In this document: in pieces, positions 1,609-11,941 of the stretch
Layout of the letters: each line of letters opens with the position of its first letter
Position numbering within the stretch: position 1 is the stretch's first letter
Assembly: GCA_902782945.1 (NCBI GenBank)
Contig: CACZOU010000020.1
Location: 1 to 37,235 of the forward strand
DNA length: 37,235 nucleotides
Source: an uncultured Methanobacteriaceae archaeon
Lineage (GTDB): Archaea > Methanobacteriota > Methanobacteria > Methanobacteriales > Methanobacteriaceae
Direction of reading: 5' to 3'
The notes under the pieces: generated by a model
Databases searched by the model: none
The model's input: only the letters and a program-made list of their open reading frames with translations
Told to the model about the DNA's origin: nothing
Program-made: the position numbers and the translations under genes

Positions 1609-1974
1609 ATGTTTCCAGGTGGAAAAATAAATCCAAAACAATTAAAACAAATGGAAAGAACCATGAAAAAAATGGGTATGAACATGAAAGAACTTAAAGG
1701 AGTAGAAGAAGTAGTGATTGTACTCAAAGACAAAGAAATAGTAATCAAAGATGCTGAAGTAAACATCATGAACGCTATGGGACAAGAAACATACCAAGTT
1801 ACAGGTAAAGCAGAAGAAAGAATAAAAAACAGTGAAAGTACTGAAGAAGCAGAGATATCTGATGAAGACATTGAATTAGTAGCATCACAGACAGGAAAAT
1901 CCAAAAAAGAAGCAGAAAAAGCTTTAAAAGAAACTAATGGAGATTTAGCTGAAGCTATAATGAGGTTATCCTAG
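1609..1974 (+). CDS. nac: Nascent polypeptide-associated complex protein
   Basis: This 121-residue protein is the archaeal NAC, a ribosome-associated homodimer that contacts emerging nascent chains. The N-terminus (MFPGG, then KQMERTMKKMGM near residue 15) is characteristic of archaeal NAC. Residues about 33-72 form the beta-barrel NAC domain, beginning with the LKGVEEVVI stretch. Residues about 83-121 form the C-terminal UBA domain, with the VASQTGKSKKEAEKAL and NGDLAEAI motifs. AGGAGG at 1594-1599 lies nine bases before the ATG. An ATG at 1604 is in another frame. Its stop codon abuts the ATG of the phosphoesterase gene, so the two are probably one transcript. Confidence 0.95.
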   Translation: MFPGGKINPKQLKQMERTMKKMGMNMKELKGVEEVVIVLKDKEIVIKDAEVNIMNAMGQETYQVTGKAEERIKNSESTEEAEISDEDIELVASQTGKSKKEAEKALKETNGDLAEAIMRLS

Positions 1975-2706
1975 ATGACAACTATTGTCCATATATCAGA
2001 TTTACATACTGGTTACACTCAGTTTAGAGAAGACCTATTACTACAAACTATTGATGAAATAAATGAAATGAAACCATCTGCTGTAATTATTACAGGAGAC
2101 TTGACAGATCATGGATTCTATAGGGAATTTGTTGAAGCAAAGAAATACATTGACATGATAGAACCAACTAAGATAATAGTACCGGGAAATCATGATGCAC
2201 GTAATATTGGTGACGAAGTATTTGAAGATCTCTTTGGTGAAAGATATGGTACTCTTGAATTAAAAGAGGAAGCAATAAAGATAATAGGATTGGACAGTAG
2301 TGAACCTGATCTAGGACATGGTAAAATTGGTCGACTTCAGAAGAAATTCATGGAAGAAGAAATAGCCGATGCTAAGGAAAGAGGATTATTTATAATAATA
2401 GCTCTTCACCACCATATCATCTCTATACCAAACACTGGAAGAGAGAGAAATATTCTAAGTGATGCTGGAGATATATTGTTAGCATTACTGAAAAATGATG
2501 TTAACCTAGTATTATCTGGACACAAACACGTTCCACATTTATGGAAGATGAAAAATACGATATTCTCTACTGCAGGAACAGTTTCATCAATGAAGCTAAG
2601 AGGAAATACTTGTCCTTCCTATAATATTATAGAGATAGACAATCAATATGTTGAGATAACACAGCATAATTCTGATGGAACAGAGAAAGAATTAACACAA
2701 CCATAA
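1975..2706 (+). CDS. Calcineurin-like metallophosphoesterase (Icc/CpdA-like)
   Basis: This 243-residue soluble protein carries the complete calcineurin-type metal site: D9 and H11 (SDLHTG), D42 (GDLTDHG), N72-H73 (GNHDAR), H145-H147 and H183/H185 (GHKHV). Proteins with this class III arrangement hydrolyse phosphomono- or diesters with two metal ions, and the best-known relatives act on cyclic nucleotides (Icc/CpdA). The substrate here is not known. It starts directly after the NAC stop codon. It sits about 110 bases upstream of an RNase gene and a GGDD palm gene. If the palm protein makes a nucleotide signal, a diesterase here could be relevant; that is inference only. Confidence 0.88.
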   Translation: MTTIVHISDLHTGYTQFREDLLLQTIDEINEMKPSAVIITGDLTDHGFYREFVEAKKYIDMIEPTKIIVPGNHDARNIGDEVFEDLFGERYGTLELKEEAIKIIGLDSSEPDLGHGKIGRLQKKFMEEEIADAKERGLFIIIALHHHIISIPNTGRERNILSDAGDILLALLKNDVNLVLSGHKHVPHLWKMKNTIFSTAGTVSSMKLRGNTCPSYNIIEIDNQYVEITQHNSDGTEKELTQP

Positions 2707-2814: not shown

Positions 2815-3855
2815 TTGAAAATAATTGTTGATGGGTCAAATGTAGCATATTACGGACAACAAGCTGATGAAGAAACAGGAAAAGTAACACCCAGCTTAAA
2901 GACTCTAAAAGTAGCTATAAATACCCTTAAAAAGTTAGGACATGAACCAATCGTTCTAGCCGATGCACCACTACGACATGAAATTGATGATAAAGATGGC
3001 TTTAATGAAATGATTCAGAACGAAGAAGTATTCCCAGTACCAGCTGGAACTATAGCTGATCATTACATATTAAACCTAGCATATGAAAAAGACGCAAAAA
3101 TATTATCAAACGATTTATTTAGAGATTATAGAGACGAATTTCAGGATATAGACAGTCGAAGACTACCATACAGAGTAAAAAATGGTCGCTTCCAAATTGG
3201 AAAACCAGCGCCTCCTAAAAAAGTAAAAAACATACTTCAAAAAATCTGTTCTAAATCATTAAATGAATTTGAAAAAAGAGGATTTGACGTATATAAATCT
3301 AAGAAAAATCGTAAATTTTCAGGACTTGCAGTAGCACAGGAAGCTATAAGCAGAGTAAGTGATGAAGACGCAAACGCTATTGATTCAAAACTAGAAGATG
3401 TATTCTTAAAAATACCAATATTAAACAAAATGGTAAGCTTTGTAGATGAAGGAATGGAAGAATCAGACTTCCTAATATTCGTACTGGTAAACCCAAAAGA
3501 CTACAAAGAAGCAGTACGTAACGCAGGAACAATAGCAATAACCGTAAGAAACAAGTTAAACCTTGACCACTCACCACTAGTAGCAGTAAGAAATGACTTA
3601 TTCACAAGACCTGGAACATTCGAATTAAACATAATATACTCAGATGAAGTACTAGAAGAATCACCATACAACCTAGACATAATAATAAATGACTCAGATT
3701 ACTCATTTATTAAACACAACTCAAGAAATATAGCAAGTACAATGGCAGCCAGACTAGGAACATGGAAATTCCCAATAGTATCAGTAAAACCAAGTATGTT
3801 AATGGAAAAACCAGGACAATTCGAAATTTCAATAGAACGTGGAGGCAAAAGATAA
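2815..3855 (+). CDS. NYN/Zc3h12a-type putative ribonuclease with duplicated C-terminal module
   Basis: This 346-residue protein begins at TTG 2815, preceded by AGGTGATC at 2805-2812. Residues about 1-125 form a NYN (PIN-like) nuclease fold: VDGSNVAY gives D6 and N9, LADAP gives D50, IADHYILN gives D82, and ILSNDLFRDY gives D100 and D104. These acidic residues match the metal-dependent RNase site of the Zc3h12a/Regnase group. After a basic linker (about 130-175) comes a region with two diverged copies of a 47-residue unit, at about 229-275 and 295-341. Each copy has a DY start and a PG(T/Q)FE(L/I) end. I do not recognise that module. The stop codon touches the ATG of the membrane palm protein, which implies coupled translation. 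Confidence 0.72.
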   Translation: MKIIVDGSNVAYYGQQADEETGKVTPSLKTLKVAINTLKKLGHEPIVLADAPLRHEIDDKDGFNEMIQNEEVFPVPAGTIADHYILNLAYEKDAKILSNDLFRDYRDEFQDIDSRRLPYRVKNGRFQIGKPAPPKKVKNILQKICSKSLNEFEKRGFDVYKSKKNRKFSGLAVAQEAISRVSDEDANAIDSKLEDVFLKIPILNKMVSFVDEGMEESDFLIFVLVNPKDYKEAVRNAGTIAITVRNKLNLDHSPLVAVRNDLFTRPGTFELNIIYSDEVLEESPYNLDIIINDSDYSFIKHNSRNIASTMAARLGTWKFPIVSVKPSMLMEKPGQFEISIERGGKR

Positions 3856-5073
3856 ATGGCTTTTGAAGGATTATTAAAAATCCTATTCTCTCGTCTATTA
3901 AATAAAAAAGTTATTAGTATAGGAACAAATTACTACGCTACAAATGATTTAGAAACAGAATATGTTTCACTCATAAACCTCACAAAAACAATGCTTGTAG
4001 AAATCAAGCCTGCTGAGATAAATAGTCAAAGTATTTTTCAAAACCTTGAAAGAGAAATAGATCAACGTGACCTACCATTAAACAGGAAATTCATTGAAAT
4101 CAGACCAGCAGAAAATAAAATCAATGAATATGCACTGCTAAGTAACATTATAATGGGAAATGATCGTTATCTATACATAGAAATATTCAAACGATCACCA
4201 GTTATAGAATCTTTCGCAAAGATGGTTGAAGTAGTAGGTGGAGAAATCATAGAAAAAAGTAAAACAGAACTTGTTTCACACATGCCTTCAAAGAAGGAAG
4301 GTATAAGAATAGCAATTAAAATGATTTCTCTGGGAATGCAGCAAGGAGTTAACGTAAGAGGAGCAGTGGGAATGACTGGTGCTGCCTCCATTGAAAGAGC
4401 AATAGAAATGGATGCTCAAATAGGAGAAGTGTCAGGAGTCGGATTCACCAAACTCGGAGGAGAATATGGTGTAATATTCGAAACAATACCTACCACTGAA
4501 AAAGTTAAACTCACACCTGTACAAGTAGACAATTTTATGTATATAGATGCAAAGGATTCCACAGGATTTATATCAAAATACGGAAAAGACAGGCTCATAG
4601 AGATTATGAATGATATTAATGCATACATAGCCAATGAGGGACAAGGTAAAATTGAGGGTTACCGTGTAGGTGGAGACGATTTAATTATTAACTATCCATC
4701 AAAGTCCATAGCACTGAAAACAGGACTGGACTGTGCATGGTATGCATTAAATAATGGACTAAATCTACGAGTAGGAATAGGTAACAGTAGAAAAGAAGCT
4801 GGAGAAAATGCTCATCTAACAGATTCAATCAAGATACATGACAACACACCAGTAATAGTATTTGACATGGCAAATGGTAAATACGCATACTACATACCAA
4901 CAGAATTCACAAGATCAATGATAGACTATCTTACAACAAAATCTGCAACACTAATAGGAGTATTCATATTCATATTCTTATTAACACTAGTTGGTTGGAA
5001 TACTGGAAACATGTGGCTAGGATTAATAGGTATACTGATAACCCTGATAATCGTAGTAGCCACAGGAGAATAG
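3856..5073 (+). CDS. Membrane-anchored double-palm protein with GGDD motif (GTP cyclohydrolase III/Cas10/GGDEF-like)
   Basis: This 405-residue protein appears to contain two tandem palm (nucleotidyl cyclase-like) domains. The second is intact: MYIDAKD puts D231 and D234 at the first metal site, VGGDD places the catalytic turn at 272-275, and NLRVGIGNSRKEA at 303-315 matches the motif after the active site. The first copy aligns with it but has E109 and KTEL (136-139) in place of the catalytic residues. PSK to N(V/L)R spacing is 22 residues in both copies. Two hydrophobic helices (about 363-380 and 387-403) end the protein. Archaeal GTP cyclohydrolase III and Cas10 share the two-palm design; neither is typically membrane-bound. 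The activity could be cyclisation, GTP ring opening or oligonucleotide synthesis. It is coupled to the RNase gene before it. Confidence 0.65.
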   Translation: MAFEGLLKILFSRLLNKKVISIGTNYYATNDLETEYVSLINLTKTMLVEIKPAEINSQSIFQNLEREIDQRDLPLNRKFIEIRPAENKINEYALLSNIIMGNDRYLYIEIFKRSPVIESFAKMVEVVGGEIIEKSKTELVSHMPSKKEGIRIAIKMISLGMQQGVNVRGAVGMTGAASIERAIEMDAQIGEVSGVGFTKLGGEYGVIFETIPTTEKVKLTPVQVDNFMYIDAKDSTGFISKYGKDRLIEIMNDINAYIANEGQGKIEGYRVGGDDLIINYPSKSIALKTGLDCAWYALNNGLNLRVGIGNSRKEAGENAHLTDSIKIHDNTPVIVFDMANGKYAYYIPTEFTRSMIDYLTTKSATLIGVFIFIFLLTLVGWNTGNMWLGLIGILITLIIVVATGE

Positions 5074-5086
5074 GGGAGGTATTAAA

Positions 5087-5518
5087 ATTAAGTCATCAAC
5101 AAATTCAAAGATAATACTTGTATTAGTTGTAGGAATAATTGCAATGCTATGTGGCTCACTAGGCGCAACTGTAATACACTTCGATGCACCCTCCCTAGAT
5201 TTAGGAAGTTTATTCGAAAACAATGGCACAAATAATACAACACTGAACAATACAACAAATGAAACAAACAATACTACAATAATATACGAACAAACAAGCA
5301 ATAACAATTACAACAACTACAATACAACTTCAGGTAAAGGAAATAATTCAAATAACAATAACAATAATAATAACCACAATAAGAACAATAACAATAATAA
5401 CAACAATAACAACAACAATAATAATAACCACAATAAGAACAATGACAATAATAATAACAACAATAATAATAACAATAATAACAACAATAATAACAATAAT
5501 CACGGTAACAACATATAA
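5087..5518 (+). CDS. Asparagine-rich secreted or membrane-anchored low-complexity protein
   Basis: The frame encodes an N-terminal hydrophobic segment (KIILVLVVGIIAMLCGSLGA) after a basic start, then an acidic linker, then Asn/Thr-rich sequence that becomes almost pure asparagine with scattered His and Lys. The first in-frame ATG (5144) lies inside the hydrophobic segment. The segment is complete only if translation begins at ATT 5087, which has GGAGGT (5075-5080) six bases upstream. No in-frame ATG, GTG or TTG exists between the previous stop codon and 5144, so I place the start at the ATT. The gene follows the palm protein by 13 bases. It is likely an anchored surface protein of about 143 residues with a disordered tail. 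The function is unknown. Confidence 0.55.
   Translation: MKSSTNSKIILVLVVGIIAMLCGSLGATVIHFDAPSLDLGSLFENNGTNNTTLNNTTNETNNTTIIYEQTSNNNYNNYNTTSGKGNNSNNNNNNNNHNKNNNNNNNNNNNNNNNHNKNNDNNNNNNNNNNNNNNNNNNHGNNI
5338..5506 (+). repeat. AAT/AAC trinucleotide microsatellite encoding poly-asparagine
   Basis: About 170 bases consist almost entirely of AAT and AAC codons, broken by CAC, AAG and GAC. A stretch of roughly 9 codons (NHNKN flanked by N) recurs imperfectly at about 5373 and 5430. The pattern suggests expansion by replication slippage. The mixture of AAT and AAC shows it is not a fresh single-unit expansion. Confidence 0.85.
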
Positions 5519-5552
5519 ATAATAAAAAATTATTATTAAAATAAAATATTAC

Positions 5553-5588
5553 GAATACTCAAATAAAATAGGGGAGTATTCATTTTTA
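5553..5588 (+). terminator. Hairpin terminator after the Asn-rich gene
   Basis: GAATACTC (5553-5560) pairs perfectly with GAGTATTC (5574-5581) across a 13-base loop, and a short T-run follows at 5583-5587. It lies about 35 bases past the Asn-rich gene's stop codon and 65 before argJ. Termination is the simplest role. Because of its position it could instead act in the argJ leader. Confidence 0.5.
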
Positions 5589-5653
5589 CTCTTAATCTTC
5601 TTTTCTAGAATGAAAATTATTTTTTAAAAATTTCTTTTTATAATACGGATGAT

Positions 5654-6853
5654 ATGATGAAAATTTTAGACAATGGTATATGTTCCATTAGTAGTTTACA
5701 AGCTAGTGGATATAAGGAAGGTAAATATGGTGTAAGCATACTTTACCATGAAAACTCAACAGCTGCTGCTGTTTACACACAAAACAAGGTATATGCAGCT
5801 CCTATTGATATTACAAGAAAACATTTAGAAAATGGTAAAATTTCAGCTGTTATAATTAACAGTGGAAATGCTAACTGTTATACTAAAGAGGACGGTATGA
5901 AAAAAGGTTTAGAATTAGCACAGCTTGTTGCTGATACATTAGACATTCCGGTTGAGGATGTTGCAACAGCATCTACTGGTGTTATTGGTAGGCAGATGCC
6001 TATGGATATTATTAAACCAGTAGCAGAGGAATCTCTTAAACGTCTTGGTAATAGCAGGGAATGTGCCAGCTGTGCAGCTGATGTTATTCGTACAACAGAC
6101 CTTGTCAGTAAGGAATGTGCTGTTGAATCAACATTAAATGATGGCACCGTCTTCAGAGTAGCTGGTATGTGTAAGGGTTCTGGTATGATTGCACCTAATA
6201 TGGGTACTATGCTAGCATTCATAGTCACAGACCTTGAAATGGATAAGGATACATTACAGGATGCTATACGTGACAGTGTACAGAAATCATTTAACATGGT
6301 TGTTGTTGATGGTGATGAAAGTACTAATGATACTGCATTATTAATGAGTACTAATGATGTTAAAGGTGCTGTTGATGATAACTTCTATGAGGCACTTGAT
6401 TATGTATGCACTAACCTTGCTAAGAAGATTGCGAAGGATGGTGAGGGTGCCACCAAGTTAATAGAAGTTGTATGTGATGGTGCTGATAGCTATGATGATG
6501 CAGTTGTTGTGGCTAAAAGTGTTGTATCCAGTAGTTTAGTTAAAACTGCTGTTGCTGGTGCTGATCCTAATTGGGGTAGAATTATTAGTGCTATGGGTTA
6601 TTCTGGTGTTGATTTTGACCCGGATAATATTTCTATTAGTATTGGTTCTGGTGATGATAATGTTGTTATTGTTGATAAGGGTACAGTTACAACTTATGAT
6701 GACCCTGAGAAGTTAGAGGCTGCTGAGAATCTTATGCAGAAGGATGAGTTAATTATACGTGTTAATCTACATGAGGGCAGTGAAAATGCTACTGCTTACG
6801 GCTGTGATTTAACGTATGATTATATTAGAATTAATGCGGAGTACACTACGTAG
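5654..6853 (+). CDS. argJ: Bifunctional glutamate N-acetyltransferase/ornithine acetyltransferase
   Basis: This 399-residue protein is full length for ArgJ. ArgJ transfers the acetyl group from N-acetylornithine to glutamate, closing the cyclic arginine pathway; some members also use acetyl-CoA. The motif KGSGMIAPNMGTMLAF contains the self-cleavage site: the precursor is expected to cut before T185, which becomes the nucleophile at the N-terminus of the beta chain. PNWGR near residue 304 is a further signature of the family. Two ATG codons in a row (5654, 5657) could start it; GGATGAT precedes them. Its codons end mainly in T or G, unlike the A-ending codons of the genes just upstream. It is followed 45 bases later by argB. 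Confidence 0.95.
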   Translation: MMKILDNGICSISSLQASGYKEGKYGVSILYHENSTAAAVYTQNKVYAAPIDITRKHLENGKISAVIINSGNANCYTKEDGMKKGLELAQLVADTLDIPVEDVATASTGVIGRQMPMDIIKPVAEESLKRLGNSRECASCAADVIRTTDLVSKECAVESTLNDGTVFRVAGMCKGSGMIAPNMGTMLAFIVTDLEMDKDTLQDAIRDSVQKSFNMVVVDGDESTNDTALLMSTNDVKGAVDDNFYEALDYVCTNLAKKIAKDGEGATKLIEVVCDGADSYDDAVVVAKSVVSSSLVKTAVAGADPNWGRIISAMGYSGVDFDPDNISISIGSGDDNVVIVDKGTVTTYDDPEKLEAAENLMQKDELIIRVNLHEGSENATAYGCDLTYDYIRINAEYTT

Positions 6854-6898
6854 ATATTTTATTTATTTTGGATTATTTAATGGAGTTAGTTGAGATTT

Positions 6899-7795
6899 AT
6901 GGTAGAACAAGAACAATTAGAAATTAGTAATGTTTTAATTGAAGCATTACCTTATATTAAGAAATTTCATGATAAGAAGATTATGATTAAGTATGGTGGA
7001 CATGCTATGATTGATGAGCATGCTATGAGTTCCACTGCAAGAGACACAGTATTACTTAAATATGTAGGTATGCAGCCTATTGTAGTTCATGGTGGTGGTC
7101 CTGAGATATCACGTTCCATGGATAAAATGGGTAAGGAACCTAAATTTATTGGTGGTTTAAGAGTTACTGATAAGGAGACCATGGAGATTGTTAAGATGGT
7201 TCTTGTTGGTAAGATCAATACTGAGATTGTGTCTAAAATCGGTTTACATGGTGGTAAGAGTTTAGGTATTTCTGGTAAGGATGGATATCTTCTTGAATCA
7301 TCACGTAAGGGTCCTACAAAGATCAGACATGAAGATGGTGAAATATTAGAGGTTGACCTTGGATATGTTGGTAAGATTGATAAGGTTAACAGGAAGATTG
7401 TTGATGATTTAACTGATAATAATTATATTCCTGTTATATCACCTATTGGTATTGATAAGGATGGTAATACTCTTAACTTGAATGCTGATACTGTTGCAGG
7501 TTCTATTGCTAGTAGTGTTGATGCTGAGAAGTTAATTGTATTGACTGATGTTCCTGGTATTTTAACTGATCCTGATGATCCTGATAGTCTTATTAGACGT
7601 ATTAGAACTGACGAGTTAAAAGAGTTAATCCGTGAGGGTGTTATTACTGGCGGTATGATTCCTAAGGTTGAAACTTGTATTAATGCTGTGGAGAATGGTG
7701 TTAAGACAGCTCACATATTGGATGGTAGACTAAATCATTCAATACTACTTGAGATTTTCACTAAGCATGGTATTGGTACAATGGTACGTGAGTAA
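6899..7795 (+). CDS. argB: Acetylglutamate kinase
   Basis: ArgB phosphorylates N-acetylglutamate in the second step of arginine synthesis. The amino acid kinase fold is clear: KYGGHAM near residue 31 is the phosphate-binding glycine loop, VHGGGPEI near 63 binds substrate, [13 protein letters not shown] holds the catalytic region and GGMIPKVE near 255 is the nucleotide-site signature. I choose ATG 6899 because [20 protein letters not shown] matches the normal family N-terminus. A TTG at 6890 would add three residues and is nearer to GGAG at 6882-6885, so it cannot be excluded. Codon use matches argJ (T/G-ending), supporting a shared history or transcript. Confidence 0.95.
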
Positions 7796-7823: not shown

Positions 7824-7860
7824 AGTGAATATTTTTAAAATTTATTTTCAGTGTTTTATT

Positions 7861-8751
7861 ATGAAATCTATAAAGTTAACAGATGATGAGATTAGTAAGA
7901 TTATTTATCAGACTCGTAATTTACGTCATGAAAAGCCTCACCAGTATGAACATATCCGTATTAAGGATGGTGATGTTGTTCTTATTTTGTATAATTCTAG
8001 GAAGTTAGTTTTTAATGACAATAGTAGTACCCGTAATTTGCTGGGTTCTGTCTTAGAATTAAAAGAATACAATTCCACAGGTGAAACTTATACTAATAAT
8101 AAAAGTATGCAGTATAATCCTGATATTTTACTAGATGACTATAGTTTTACCATAGGCTCTGATGAAACTGGTAAAGGTGAATGGTATGGACCGCTTGTTG
8201 TAACAGCAGTATCTACATCACATGATGATAATTTGAAATTAAAACGTATTGGAGTGACTGATAGTAAGAAATTATCAACAAAACAAATCTATAAACTATA
8301 CCCTAAAATAGAAAAACTAGGCATTAACAGCAGAACAATCATTCTTAAACCATTCAGTTACAATAGATTATACCAGAAATTCACCAGTAAGGGAAAAAAC
8401 CTGAATCACTTACTGGCATACCTTCATTCAAAGGTTATAACAGAATTACTACAGGATATTCAGACAACAGATGTACTGGTTATTATTGATAAATTTGATT
8501 ATAAAAAGATGAATGAATATCTTAACATTAATGATAAAATCAAAGTAATACAGGAATCAAACGGTGAAAAATACATACCCGTTGCTACAAGTAGCATAAT
8601 AGCAAAATACAATTATGAACAAACCTTAAAAGAAATAGAAGAAAGATATAATATTAACTTAAGAAAAACAAAACCAAAAAATATTAACAAAGACGTAATA
8701 GATAAAGTTGCAAAAACACACTTCAAAAACGTTAAACCATACGCATATTAA
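7861..8751 (+). CDS. rnhC: Ribonuclease HIII
   Basis: This protein of 296 residues cleaves the RNA strand of RNA-DNA hybrids. The GSDETGKGEWYGPLVV motif near residue 99 is the RNase HIII form of the type 2 RNase H active site and gives D101 and E102. D134 (VTDSKKLS) and D210 (VIIDKF) complete the acidic site. The roughly 95 residues before the catalytic domain match the TBP-like N-terminal domain of RNase HIII, which RNase HII lacks. The chosen start is ATG 7861; a GTG at 7825 would add 12 hydrophobic residues without a ribosome site. The gene sits between argB and argC, with which it has no functional link. Codon use changes within the gene, from T/G-ending to A-ending codons after about 8150-8200. 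Confidence 0.85.
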   Translation: MKSIKLTDDEISKIIYQTRNLRHEKPHQYEHIRIKDGDVVLILYNSRKLVFNDNSSTRNLLGSVLELKEYNSTGETYTNNKSMQYNPDILLDDYSFTIGSDETGKGEWYGPLVVTAVSTSHDDNLKLKRIGVTDSKKLSTKQIYKLYPKIEKLGINSRTIILKPFSYNRLYQKFTSKGKNLNHLLAYLHSKVITELLQDIQTTDVLVIIDKFDYKKMNEYLNINDKIKVIQESNGEKYIPVATSSIIAKYNYEQTLKEIEERYNINLRKTKPKNINKDVIDKVAKTHFKNVKPYAY

Positions 8752-9864: not shown

Positions 9865-10329
9865 ATGACAGACTTAGTAATATACTATACAAGAACAAAT
9901 AAAACAAAGACTATTGCAGAGGAAATAGCAAAAGAAAAAGATGCTCAATTATTAGAAGTTATTGATAAAACAAATAGGGATGGATCAATCAAATTCTTAA
10001 CTAGTGCAATAGATGCAATGCGTGGAAAGAAGACAAGCATTGAATATGATGCTGTGGATTTATCAGAATATGACACAATATATATTGGTTCTCCAGTATG
10101 GGCATCTAAAGCAACACCAGCCATACTTGAGTTTGTAGAGGAAAATGACTTTAATAATACTAATGTAGTAAGTTTTGTAACACTTACAAGTAATGGTGCA
10201 GAAAAGGCTCTGGATAACTTAAACGATGCTATAAAATCAAAGGGTGGAAAGATTATCAGGTCTTTCTCTATTATAACAAAAAATACAGATATCATTAAAT
10301 TAACCCATGATGCATTAAATGATGAATAA
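9865..10329 (+). CDS. Flavodoxin family protein (copy 1 of 4)
   Basis: This 154-residue soluble protein has a flavodoxin fold: an IYYTRTNKT phosphate loop near residue 6, DTIYIGSPVW near 68 and VSFVTLTSNG near 94. The loop follows the flavodoxin pattern T-x-T-x-x-T but has N in place of the usual glycine. SPVWASKATPAI is the segment that normally contacts the isoalloxazine ring. AGGTGG about ten bases upstream serves the ATG. It is the first of four tandem paralogues and probably an FMN-binding electron carrier or quinone-reductase-like protein; the partner is unknown. Confidence 0.85.
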   Translation: MTDLVIYYTRTNKTKTIAEEIAKEKDAQLLEVIDKTNRDGSIKFLTSAIDAMRGKKTSIEYDAVDLSEYDTIYIGSPVWASKATPAILEFVEENDFNNTNVVSFVTLTSNGAEKALDNLNDAIKSKGGKIIRSFSIITKNTDIIKLTHDALNDE

Positions 10330-10492
10330 ATTATATTCATCTATCACCCCTATACTTAAACTATTTTTTAAAAGAAACTAAATCAAAAAATATAAACTTG
10401 AATGAAAAACATAATAATAAGTATAGAACAAAAATAAAGTAAATTTTTTTTAAATTATATAAACAATAATTGAAATAGGGGTTAAAAAAAAT

Positions 10493-10963
10493 ATGAATGA
10501 TATAGTAATTTATTATTCAAGAACAGGAAAAACAAAATTAGTAGCTAAAACAATAGCGAAAGAAATAGCTGCTGATACACAGGAAATTAAAGATTTAACA
10601 AATAGATCTGGTCTACGTGGCTTCGTAAAAGGAGTTATAGACATAAAATTCAACGCAAATACCGAAATAAGTCCTGAAAGAGTAGATTTAAAAGATTATG
10701 ATACAATATATATCGGTTCCCCTGTATGGGGTGCAAGAATAGCACCAGCCATAATGCAACTAGTAAACAACTGTGACTTTGAAGGCAAAAACGTTATAAC
10801 ATTTGTAACAATGAGCGGATCAGGTTCAGATAATGCATTATCAGAGTTAAACAATCAGATAAAAACAAAGAAAGGAAACATAACCAACTCCTTTGCAATA
10901 ATTACTAAAAACACTGACATCCCCAAATTAACAAAGAAAGCATTAAAGGATTTGGAGAATTAA
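10493..10963 (+). CDS. Flavodoxin family protein (copy 2 of 4)
   Basis: This 156-residue protein is the closest of the four paralogues to a canonical flavodoxin. IYYSRTGKTKLVA near residue 5 is an unmodified FMN-phosphate loop (S-R-T-G-K-T), DTIYIGSPVWG lies near 68 and FVTMSGSGSD near 101. It follows a 163-base spacer that is T-rich and probably holds the end of copy 1 and a new promoter. The next paralogue starts one base after its stop codon, so copies 2 and 3 are translated from one message. It is likely an FMN electron carrier. Confidence 0.87.
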   Translation: MNDIVIYYSRTGKTKLVAKTIAKEIAADTQEIKDLTNRSGLRGFVKGVIDIKFNANTEISPERVDLKDYDTIYIGSPVWGARIAPAIMQLVNNCDFEGKNVITFVTMSGSGSDNALSELNNQIKTKKGNITNSFAIITKNTDIPKLTKKALKDLEN

Positions 10964-10964
10964 G

Positions 10965-11432
10965 ATGAGAAGCTTAGTTATAGTATATTCTAATTCAGGC
11001 AACACATTAACCGTTGCTAAAACAATTAAAAAAGAATTAAAAGCTCATTTAAGGGAAATTACTGATTATACTATCCATAGAACAGTTCTAGATTATCTGT
11101 TTACTAGTGCTATTGATTCAGCTAGTATTAACCCAAGAAAGATAGATGTTGACTATTATGAAACAATATTTATTGGTACACCTGTATGGTTAGGTAGTGT
11201 AACTCCTGCAATAAAGAAAATTATAGATAACACCGATTTCAAAAATAAAAATGTAATATTATTCAATACACTAAAATGTATTGGTGGCGACATTGCCATG
11301 AAACGTCTTGCAAGACAAGTGAAAAAACATAATGGTAATGTCATAGGTGGCTTCTCCATATACAGTAATGGAACAAAAGAAGATATGGTAAATAATACAC
11401 GAATAGCCTTATCAGATTTTAATTTAGTATAA
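10965..11432 (+). CDS. Flavodoxin family protein (copy 3 of 4)
   Basis: This 155-residue paralogue has VYSNSGNTLTVA near residue 6 as the phosphate loop, which still fits S-x-S-G-x-T. ETIFIGTPVWLGSVTPAI follows near residue 66. The third loop differs from copies 1 and 2: LFNTLKCIGGD replaces the FVT(L/M) segment and adds a cysteine. It starts one base after copy 2, with GGAG at 10955-10958 inside the end of that gene. FMN binding is probable, but its redox partner may differ. Confidence 0.83.
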   Translation: MRSLVIVYSNSGNTLTVAKTIKKELKAHLREITDYTIHRTVLDYLFTSAIDSASINPRKIDVDYYETIFIGTPVWLGSVTPAIKKIIDNTDFKNKNVILFNTLKCIGGDIAMKRLARQVKKHNGNVIGGFSIYSNGTKEDMVNNTRIALSDFNLV

Positions 11433-11452
11433 ACATGTAAAAGAGGATTATT

Positions 11453-11941
11453 ATGACTGTTTTAGTAACATATTCAACAAATAAGGAAATCAGAATTGTT
11501 TCAGAATTCTTAGCTAAAAGGGTGAATGGTGAATGTATAGAAATAATTGATTTAAAAAGAAAGAAAGGTTTCTTTAATAGTATTCGTAATAATTATAATG
11601 CTATGCGTTCTACTAAAACAGAAATTCAGCCAAGTAGTATAGATTTAAGTAAATATAATCTTATTTTAATGGGAAGTCCTTCTACATTAGGTAATCCTTC
11701 ACCTGCTATATTAACTTTTATAGATAATTGCGACTTTAAGAATAAGGATGTGATTATATACACAACAACTCATACCAGGCAGGGACATGGCGTCTTAAAT
11801 GATATGAAAAAAAGAATTGAATCAAGAGGTGGTCGTATAATTAATTCTTTTATCATAAGAGTTAATGATAAAACTGAGGAAGAAATTATTCGAAACACTT
11901 TACGCGTAATCTATGCATTAGATTTAGATTTATATCTATAA
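11453..11941 (+). CDS. Degenerate flavodoxin-like protein (copy 4 of 4)
   Basis: This 162-residue protein aligns with the three preceding flavodoxin-like proteins over its full length, including DLSKYNLILMGSP near residue 64 and NPSPAILTFIDNCDF. The phosphate loop reads TYSTNKEIRIVS, which has lost the glycine and the final threonine needed to hold FMN phosphate. The PVW segment is changed to PSTLG. The frame is intact and AGAGGA precedes the ATG, so it is not an obvious pseudogene. It may bind flavin poorly, or may have become a structural or regulatory subunit. Codons are T-ending, unlike copies 1 to 3. Confidence 0.75.
   Translation: MTVLVTYSTNKEIRIVSEFLAKRVNGECIEIIDLKRKKGFFNSIRNNYNAMRSTKTEIQPSSIDLSKYNLILMGSPSTLGNPSPAILTFIDNCDFKNKDVIIYTTTHTRQGHGVLNDMKKRIESRGGRIINSFIIRVNDKTEEEIIRNTLRVIYALDLDLYL

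Follow-up and report, generated by a model that had tools for sequence, protein, structure and literature searches.

The 37,235-nucleotide stretch of DNA analysed here (the window), from an uncultured Methanobacteriaceae archaeon, contains a gene for a protein that was read in the original prediction as one degenerate and one active palm domain anchored to the membrane. The function proposed for it was that of a membrane-bound nucleotide signal synthase or of an altered GTP cyclohydrolase III (GCH III). The question raised by this locus is what such a protein does and with which genes it works.

A duplicated palm fold with C-terminal membrane helices

The gene and the predicted parts of its product are located as follows.

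3856..5073, + strand: tandem-palm membrane protein gene (ATG start, 405 aa)
4165..4479, + strand: N-terminal palm (residues 104-208), without metal ligands, with invariant R104, E180, R181, K199, G201, and E203
4531..4893, + strand: C-terminal palm (residues 226-346), predicted active
4546..4548, + strand: D231 at the end of strand 1, predicted metal ligand, 105/105
4669..4680, + strand: GGDD (272-275) in a hairpin, predicted metal ligands, 105/105
4939..5061, + strand: two C-terminal helices (362-383 and 387-402), predicted membrane anchor (AF2 model and hydropathy)

Profile comparison of the N-half (residues 95-215) with the C-half (216-350) gave an hhalign P of 97.8% (pairwise E 1.1e-12, which is not a database E-value), and when five alignments were reversed as decoys, P was at most 1.5%. 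The AF2 model (pLDDT 84.6, pTM 0.71) was built from an alignment of 35 family members chosen from a larger set of relatives. The same b-a-b-b-a-b-a-b-b order of elements was observed at residues 104-208 and 226-346, with a segment of 100 residues before the palms and two helices at 362-402 after them. A hydropathy scan found at least one C-terminal segment in 105/105 sequences and two in 71/105, and the spacing from PSK to N(V/L)R was 22 in both halves (144 to 166 and 281 to 303), as originally described. The matches listed for the palm protein were free of internal stops. No Pfam or NCBIfam family matched the protein at E up to 1; across the 35 family members, each Pfam family matched at most two, and no cyclase family was among the 15 listed. 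These computations establish the duplication of the palm fold and the predicted C-terminal membrane helices, confirming what the original prediction had observed. Its placement of the gene outside CRISPR also held, with no array seen in the window and no match to Cas10 palm2 (PF22335) in either of the two genomes of the species.

Conserved residues in both halves

Conservation was counted over 130 rows reduced to 105 distinct sequences, which are not independent tests because they are related and many come from Methanobrevibacter; the invariance extends to five Methanopyrus-like sequences with 21-24% identity to the window protein. The invariant set of the C-half comprised D231, S235, G272, G273, D274, D275, K283, G307, G309, and A319, so that D231 and the whole of G272-G273-D274-D275 were retained in 105/105. 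The original prediction had stated that a structure without two palm folds, or a family alignment in which D231 and GGDD vary, would count against it; two palm folds were predicted, and both motifs were conserved throughout. The part of the proposed metal site that did not stand is D234, which was D in 84, N in 15, G in four, and E in two of the 105 sequences and was ruled out as a conserved metal ligand.

The N-half also has an invariant set of its own (R104, K146, G172, T174, A176, A177, E180, R181, F197, K199, G201, and E203). In the hhalign alignment, GGDD lies opposite S135-K136-T137-E138, with E138 (103/105) opposite D275 and E109 (98/105) opposite D231. The original pairing of GGDD with KTEL is off by one residue. 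The first half has no metal ligands, as claimed, but "dead" is too simple a word for it, since it is constrained as strictly as the live half. Because this invariant set is kept despite the absent metal ligands, the N-half is more likely to be part of a shared site than a relic. In membrane adenylyl cyclases, C1 alone or C2 alone is inactive and both contribute catalytic residues, according to a passage of PMC9552081. By analogy, the two halves of the palm protein may divide the labour in the same way, which is the weakest link of the mechanism proposed below.

Resemblance to nucleotidyl cyclases and other palm proteins

In a PDB profile search, the Rv1900c class III cyclase domain came out on top (E 0.0029), and the other eleven rows, all with E of at least 0.42, contained Ma1120 cyclases, one cytidylate cyclase (1.3), and unrelated proteins. 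The top Foldseek match was the tandem soluble core of the membrane adenylyl cyclase AC9 (E 2.1e-7), and 18 matches had E up to 1e-3. GCH III was found at ranks 4 (2qv6, E 8.7e-5), 6, and 9, followed by light-regulated and mycobacterial cyclases, and Cmr2/Cas10 (4doz) at rank 27 (E 1.6e-3). Five of the top ten were designed ferredoxin-fold proteins. The whole-chain TM-scores of the best 50 rows were low (query-normalised 0.09-0.25) and have no bearing on the packing of the halves. The likeness to Cas10 and GCH III noted earlier is borne out in part, both being among the matches, but tandem AC9 heads the ranking and class III cyclases make up 35 of the best 50 rows.

The C-half profile was aligned with four families by hhalign. 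P was 96.2% for class III cyclases (pairwise E 2.1e-9, again not a database value), 72.7% for the GCH III C-half, 33.5% for Cas10 palm2, and 14.2% for GGDEF (8.9% with 11 GGDEF sequences). At equal depth, in 12 random draws of eight sequences per family, the median P was 96 for class III (94.5-96.5), 38 for the GCH III C-half (12.7-86.9), 15 for Cas10 palm2 (6.4-49.2), and 7 for GGDEF (4.5-14.0). For the N-half, P was 71.2% with class III and 0.2-0.4% with GCH III. The sole PADLOC match was a Pycsar cyclase (E 0.012). The 11 class III controls were taken from 40 listed of 260 plasmid records, and the comparison favours class III because these controls were retrieved with Ma1120, which had itself come up in the PDB profile search. 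The GGDEF set combined five of 12 listed matches with six sequences from E. coli K-12, the GCH III set consisted of 16 sequences (that of the same genome plus 15), and the Cas10 set covered 26 of 30 loci, any stops in the cut stretches being replaced by X.

The Asp-to-Asp spacing was 43 in the palm protein versus 44 in class III, as measurable by pattern in 7/11 controls. A transition-state motif of the VN..AR type was found in 0/105 palm sequences with a pattern that detects only 3/11 class III controls; E180-R181, on the equivalent helix, may be the counterpart of the class III transition-state Asn/Arg, which we offer only as a suggestion. Class III cyclases have a single hairpin acid, and an Asp plus an acidic dyad marks polymerases, GGDEF proteins, and CRISPR polymerases, as set out in a section of PMC2904730. 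To judge from sequence profiles, the live half is closest to class III nucleotidyl cyclases, then to GCH III, Cas10, and GGDEF; its motif (Asp plus Asp-Asp), in contrast, is like that of Cas10 and GGDEF. Since the profiles fit class III and the acids fit polymerases, GGDEF, and Cas10, the live half can be described as class III-like in its body and Cas10-like in its hairpin. The full set of features of any one of these families is not seen in the palm protein.

A near-universal single-copy gene of Methanobacteria

The palm family was found in 147/151 genomes of the phylum sample and in 90/91 of those with a completeness of 90% or more and a contamination of 5% or less. There was a single match in 146 of the 147 genomes (partial in G057 and G063), and the two matches in the remaining one (G013) together form one gene. 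Outside the phylum sample, full matches were found in five genomes of one other genus, most likely Methanopyrus, in overlapping samples of 150, 151, and 345 genomes; these searches covered samples, and the family may occur more widely. One weak match (G221, E 0.0017) has internal stop codons and was seen in one search only. Profile searches found no member of the family around G039. One methanogen contig (L071) is assigned to a Candidatus Bipolaricaulota MAG and is probably contamination.

Among viral contigs, 97 stretches matched the search pattern and none codes for a palm relative; BFVD gave no match at E 0.001. A viral origin of the protein was rejected on these grounds. Two weak PHROGs matches are to proteins of unknown function. 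No paper describing the family was found in the open-access literature. MK0108 appears in the part of Gao and Gupta 2007 (PMC1852104) that lists proteins specific to Methanobacteriales and Methanopyrales, and the Methanopyrus palm gene, number 110 in a rough ORF count, is plausibly MK0108.

A constant partner gene upstream

The gene immediately upstream, which the original prediction did not mention, has the following parts.

2815..3855, + strand: partner with an NYN RNase domain and a C-terminal tandem-repeat domain; its TAA touches the palm ATG
3460..3852, + strand: partner C-terminal domain (residues 216-346), two similar units (hhalign P 97.4%)

Residues 2-142 of the partner match the NYN RNase domain (PF11977, E 6.6e-23). 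In the PDB, the NYN domain matched ZC3H12 and KHNYN chains (E 1.8e-6 to 2.2e-5), and its best folds were MCPIP1 and PRORP2. Among the best 50 Foldseek rows for the partner, all four at E up to 0.001 were RNase-domain matches. The tandem units have a predicted b-a-a-b-b order, twice, and no match was found between this domain and the palm profiles.

The partner lies upstream of the palm gene on the same strand in 102/105 loci, within 60 bases in 83 and at 100 to 2,466 bases in 19, as measured between stop-to-stop frames. The 105 loci hold 94 distinct palm sequences; the named loci are 80 of 101 relatives, and a further 20, fetched by place, share species with these 80. In two of the other loci, L117 and L125, the sequence ends 77 and 156 bases upstream of the palm gene. 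L088 alone has a long upstream stretch in which the partner was not found, none being present within 5,983 bases; there, at 4712-7209, the palm gene is preceded by an Era-like GTPase, as read from its sequence, and a small unknown gene.

In 5/5 Methanopyrus-like loci, the partner matched profile positions 129-338 only, that is, the tandem domain with no NYN match. Therefore, the constant pair consists of the palm protein and the tandem domain, and the NYN RNase is a gain in, or a loss outside, Methanobacteria. In one locus (L147), an aspartokinase-like ORF, as judged by eye, lies beyond the partner on the other strand.

Other neighbours and features of the window

Two further genes are found upstream of the partner.

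1609..1974, + strand: archaeal NAC homologue, frequent upstream neighbour
1975..2706, + strand: calcineurin-like phosphoesterase with weak similarity to the cAMP phosphodiesterase CpdA; a common but not invariable neighbour

In 59 of the named loci, the upstream sequence was at least 3.5 kb long; NAC was found within 3.6 kb in 52 of these and the phosphoesterase in 46. The phosphoesterase scored 45 bits against CpdA, for which the cut-off is 225. It is a possible hydrolase for the palm product, but it is not a constant partner; because it is missing upstream in 13/59 loci, it was rejected as the obligate half of a synthase-hydrolase pair. In six loci of the genus Methanosphaera (L054, L056, L057, L058, L060, and L061), no phosphoesterase gene is seen between NAC and the NYN partner, and both of these are retained.

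Promoter-like sites numbered 16 versus 17.3 in shuffles, and terminator-like sites 2 versus 1.0. An ORF of 124 aa with mostly Asn codons (5144-5518; no Pfam match at E 1e-4) lies after the palm gene and before the next ORF and is overlapped by a repeat family at 5300-5548. From their sequences, downstream ORFs were read as argJ, argB, and argC. At 7825-8751 (scanned from 7861), there is a ribonuclease HIII-like ORF, here in an archaeon, that exceeds the cut-off of PF01351 and scores 128.6 bits with TIGR00716, below the cut-off of 161.2. Four flavodoxin-like ORFs stand in tandem on one strand at 9865-11941; three match Pfam flavodoxin families, and the fourth matches NCBIfam PRK07116 only, far below its cut-off.

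Proposed mechanism and alternative explanations

We propose, with roughly even confidence, that the palm protein is a membrane-anchored, pseudo-heterodimeric nucleotidyl cyclase-like enzyme or nucleotide-signal synthase. We infer its catalysis, shared site, substrate, and product, as well as the role of the partner, as follows. In the C-terminal palm, D231 and D274/D275 would coordinate two metal ions, which would promote attack on the alpha phosphate of an NTP, giving a cyclic nucleotide or an oligonucleotide. The N-terminal palm would contribute E180, R181, K199, and E203 across the interface to contact the base, the triphosphate, or the transition state, the model for such sharing being the two halves of membrane adenylyl cyclases, which form one site. 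The product would probably act with the upstream partner. There, sensing or regulation may fall to the tandem-repeat domain, and in Methanobacteria the NYN RNase domain is a candidate for the output.

With regard to the product, Leichtling et al. reported cAMP in Methanothermobacter in 1986, according to a passage of PMC8646023, and the same passage counts very few class III enzymes among predicted archaeal adenylate cyclases. A CYTH protein, possibly a class IV cyclase, was present in 12/12 genomes, and a cNMP-binding domain was found in 0/12; a plain cAMP role would thus have no standard receptor and a competing source. If the palm protein makes a signal, its receptor would be non-standard, and the tandem domain of the partner would be the first candidate.

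The same observations can be read in other ways. The protein might be a non-turnover nucleotide sensor, which would bind metal-NTP and control the partner RNase at the membrane. The near-universal single copy and the constant partner fit a regulatory complex of this kind, and it is consistent with the lack of the cNMP-binding domain and of the class III transition-state motif in the samples given above; however, all three acids (D231, D274, and D275) are invariant in 105/105, and pseudo-enzymes are often without at least one catalytic acid, so that we consider a sensor unlikely. A Thg1-like, RNA-directed nucleotidyl transferase that acts on RNA ends together with the NYN RNase would account for the RNase domain of the partner and for the Asp plus acidic dyad, a palm pattern that polymerases and GGDEF share with Thg1 in the account given in PMC2904730. 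This is rather improbable, as the palm protein matches no RNA-binding family, the Methanopyrus-like partner lacks an NYN match, and membrane helices are odd for a role on RNA ends.

Two further readings turn on the families named in the original prediction. An altered GCH III would open the ring of GTP, or hydrolyse an NTP in some other way, as a step of a biosynthetic pathway, as the rank of 2qv6 and the C-half profile match (72.7%, and up to 86.9 in one of the 12 draws) could suggest. Yet there is no PF05165 match, the Asn of GGDN and the Asp of the N-half FDN (16/16 each in GCH III) are both absent, the N-half does not match, and a true GCH III is encoded elsewhere in the same genome (E 1.9e-95); membership of this family was rejected on these grounds, and an altered cyclohydrolase activity is quite improbable. 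A Cas10- or mCpol-like defence synthase has a precedent outside CRISPR in mCpol/Panoptes, as described in part of PMC12657230, and 4doz is among the Foldseek matches. The near-universal presence of the palm gene in a largely unchanged neighbourhood, where a defence island would be patchy, the missing Cas10 match in Pfam and PADLOC, and the lack of a relative in viral contigs make this reading barely credible.

Of the two functions first proposed, signalling is thus the better supported, and the cyclohydrolase is not favoured. We regard the protein as a variant of the palm-fold nucleotidyl cyclases, without a Pfam or NCBIfam name, in which the "dead" palm is as constrained as its live twin. This near-universal gene of Methanobacteria, gut ones included, whose palm site is intact and whose partner is constant, provides a concrete candidate for a nucleotide-signal enzyme. 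Going beyond the enzyme itself, it is possible, although doubtful, that the family is a separate lineage of membrane nucleotide-signal synthases, with the build of a tandem adenylyl cyclase and a Cas10-type GGDD. Such a synthase would belong to the core genes of Methanobacteria and Methanopyrus, and it would either send its signal to a dedicated partner, which carries an RNase in Methanobacteria, or be under the control of that partner. If true, archaea would have a housekeeping module for nucleotide-RNA signalling that has gone unrecognised.

Comparison with known systems

The palm protein shares the palm fold and the acidic dyad with GGDEF diguanylate cyclases and with the archaeal relative typified by MK0296 (Anantharaman 2010, in a section of PMC2904730). 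However, GGDEF gave the weakest profile match (P 9-14%), and the palm protein has GGDD-L in place of GG(D/E)EF. PF00990 gave no Pfam match to the palm protein and was over its cut-off in 0/6 genomes, with one weak match (E 0.005, G180). In an M. kandleri-like genome (G201:C1, L215), an ORF at about 285200-286117 contains a weak GGDEF-like domain (GTEEF, profile E 7e-4) and, from its map position, is probably MK0296. MK0296 was rejected as a member of the palm family, as its map position differs and this ORF has no match to the C-half profile.

Cas10 proteins (Csm1/Cmr2) have one degenerate and one complete palm. Cas10 and mCpol have an Asp plus an acidic dyad, as does the palm protein, which differs from them in its weak profile match, in the absence of any CRISPR context seen, and in its near-universal single copy. 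GCH III (PF05165, MJ0145) resembles it in the tandem palm, the GGD of the C-half, and profile similarity to the C-half end; the palm protein differs in that it has GGDD rather than GGDN, lacks the N-half FDN, and possesses membrane helices and an extra segment at residues 1-100.

Unlike the class III cyclases (Ma1120, Rv1900c, the C1-C2 membrane adenylyl cyclases, and Pycsar PycC), the palm protein has GGDD for GDG, a C-terminal anchor, and no match over a curated Pfam or NCBIfam cut-off. It shares with them the two metal Asp, at the end of strand 1 and in the hairpin (D231 and D274, 105/105), a D-x-x-S-T stretch, a membrane anchor, and the best profile and fold match, and it has two complementary halves like C1-C2 of the membrane adenylyl cyclases. 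The palm protein sits between class III cyclases, GCH III, and Cas10 palms.
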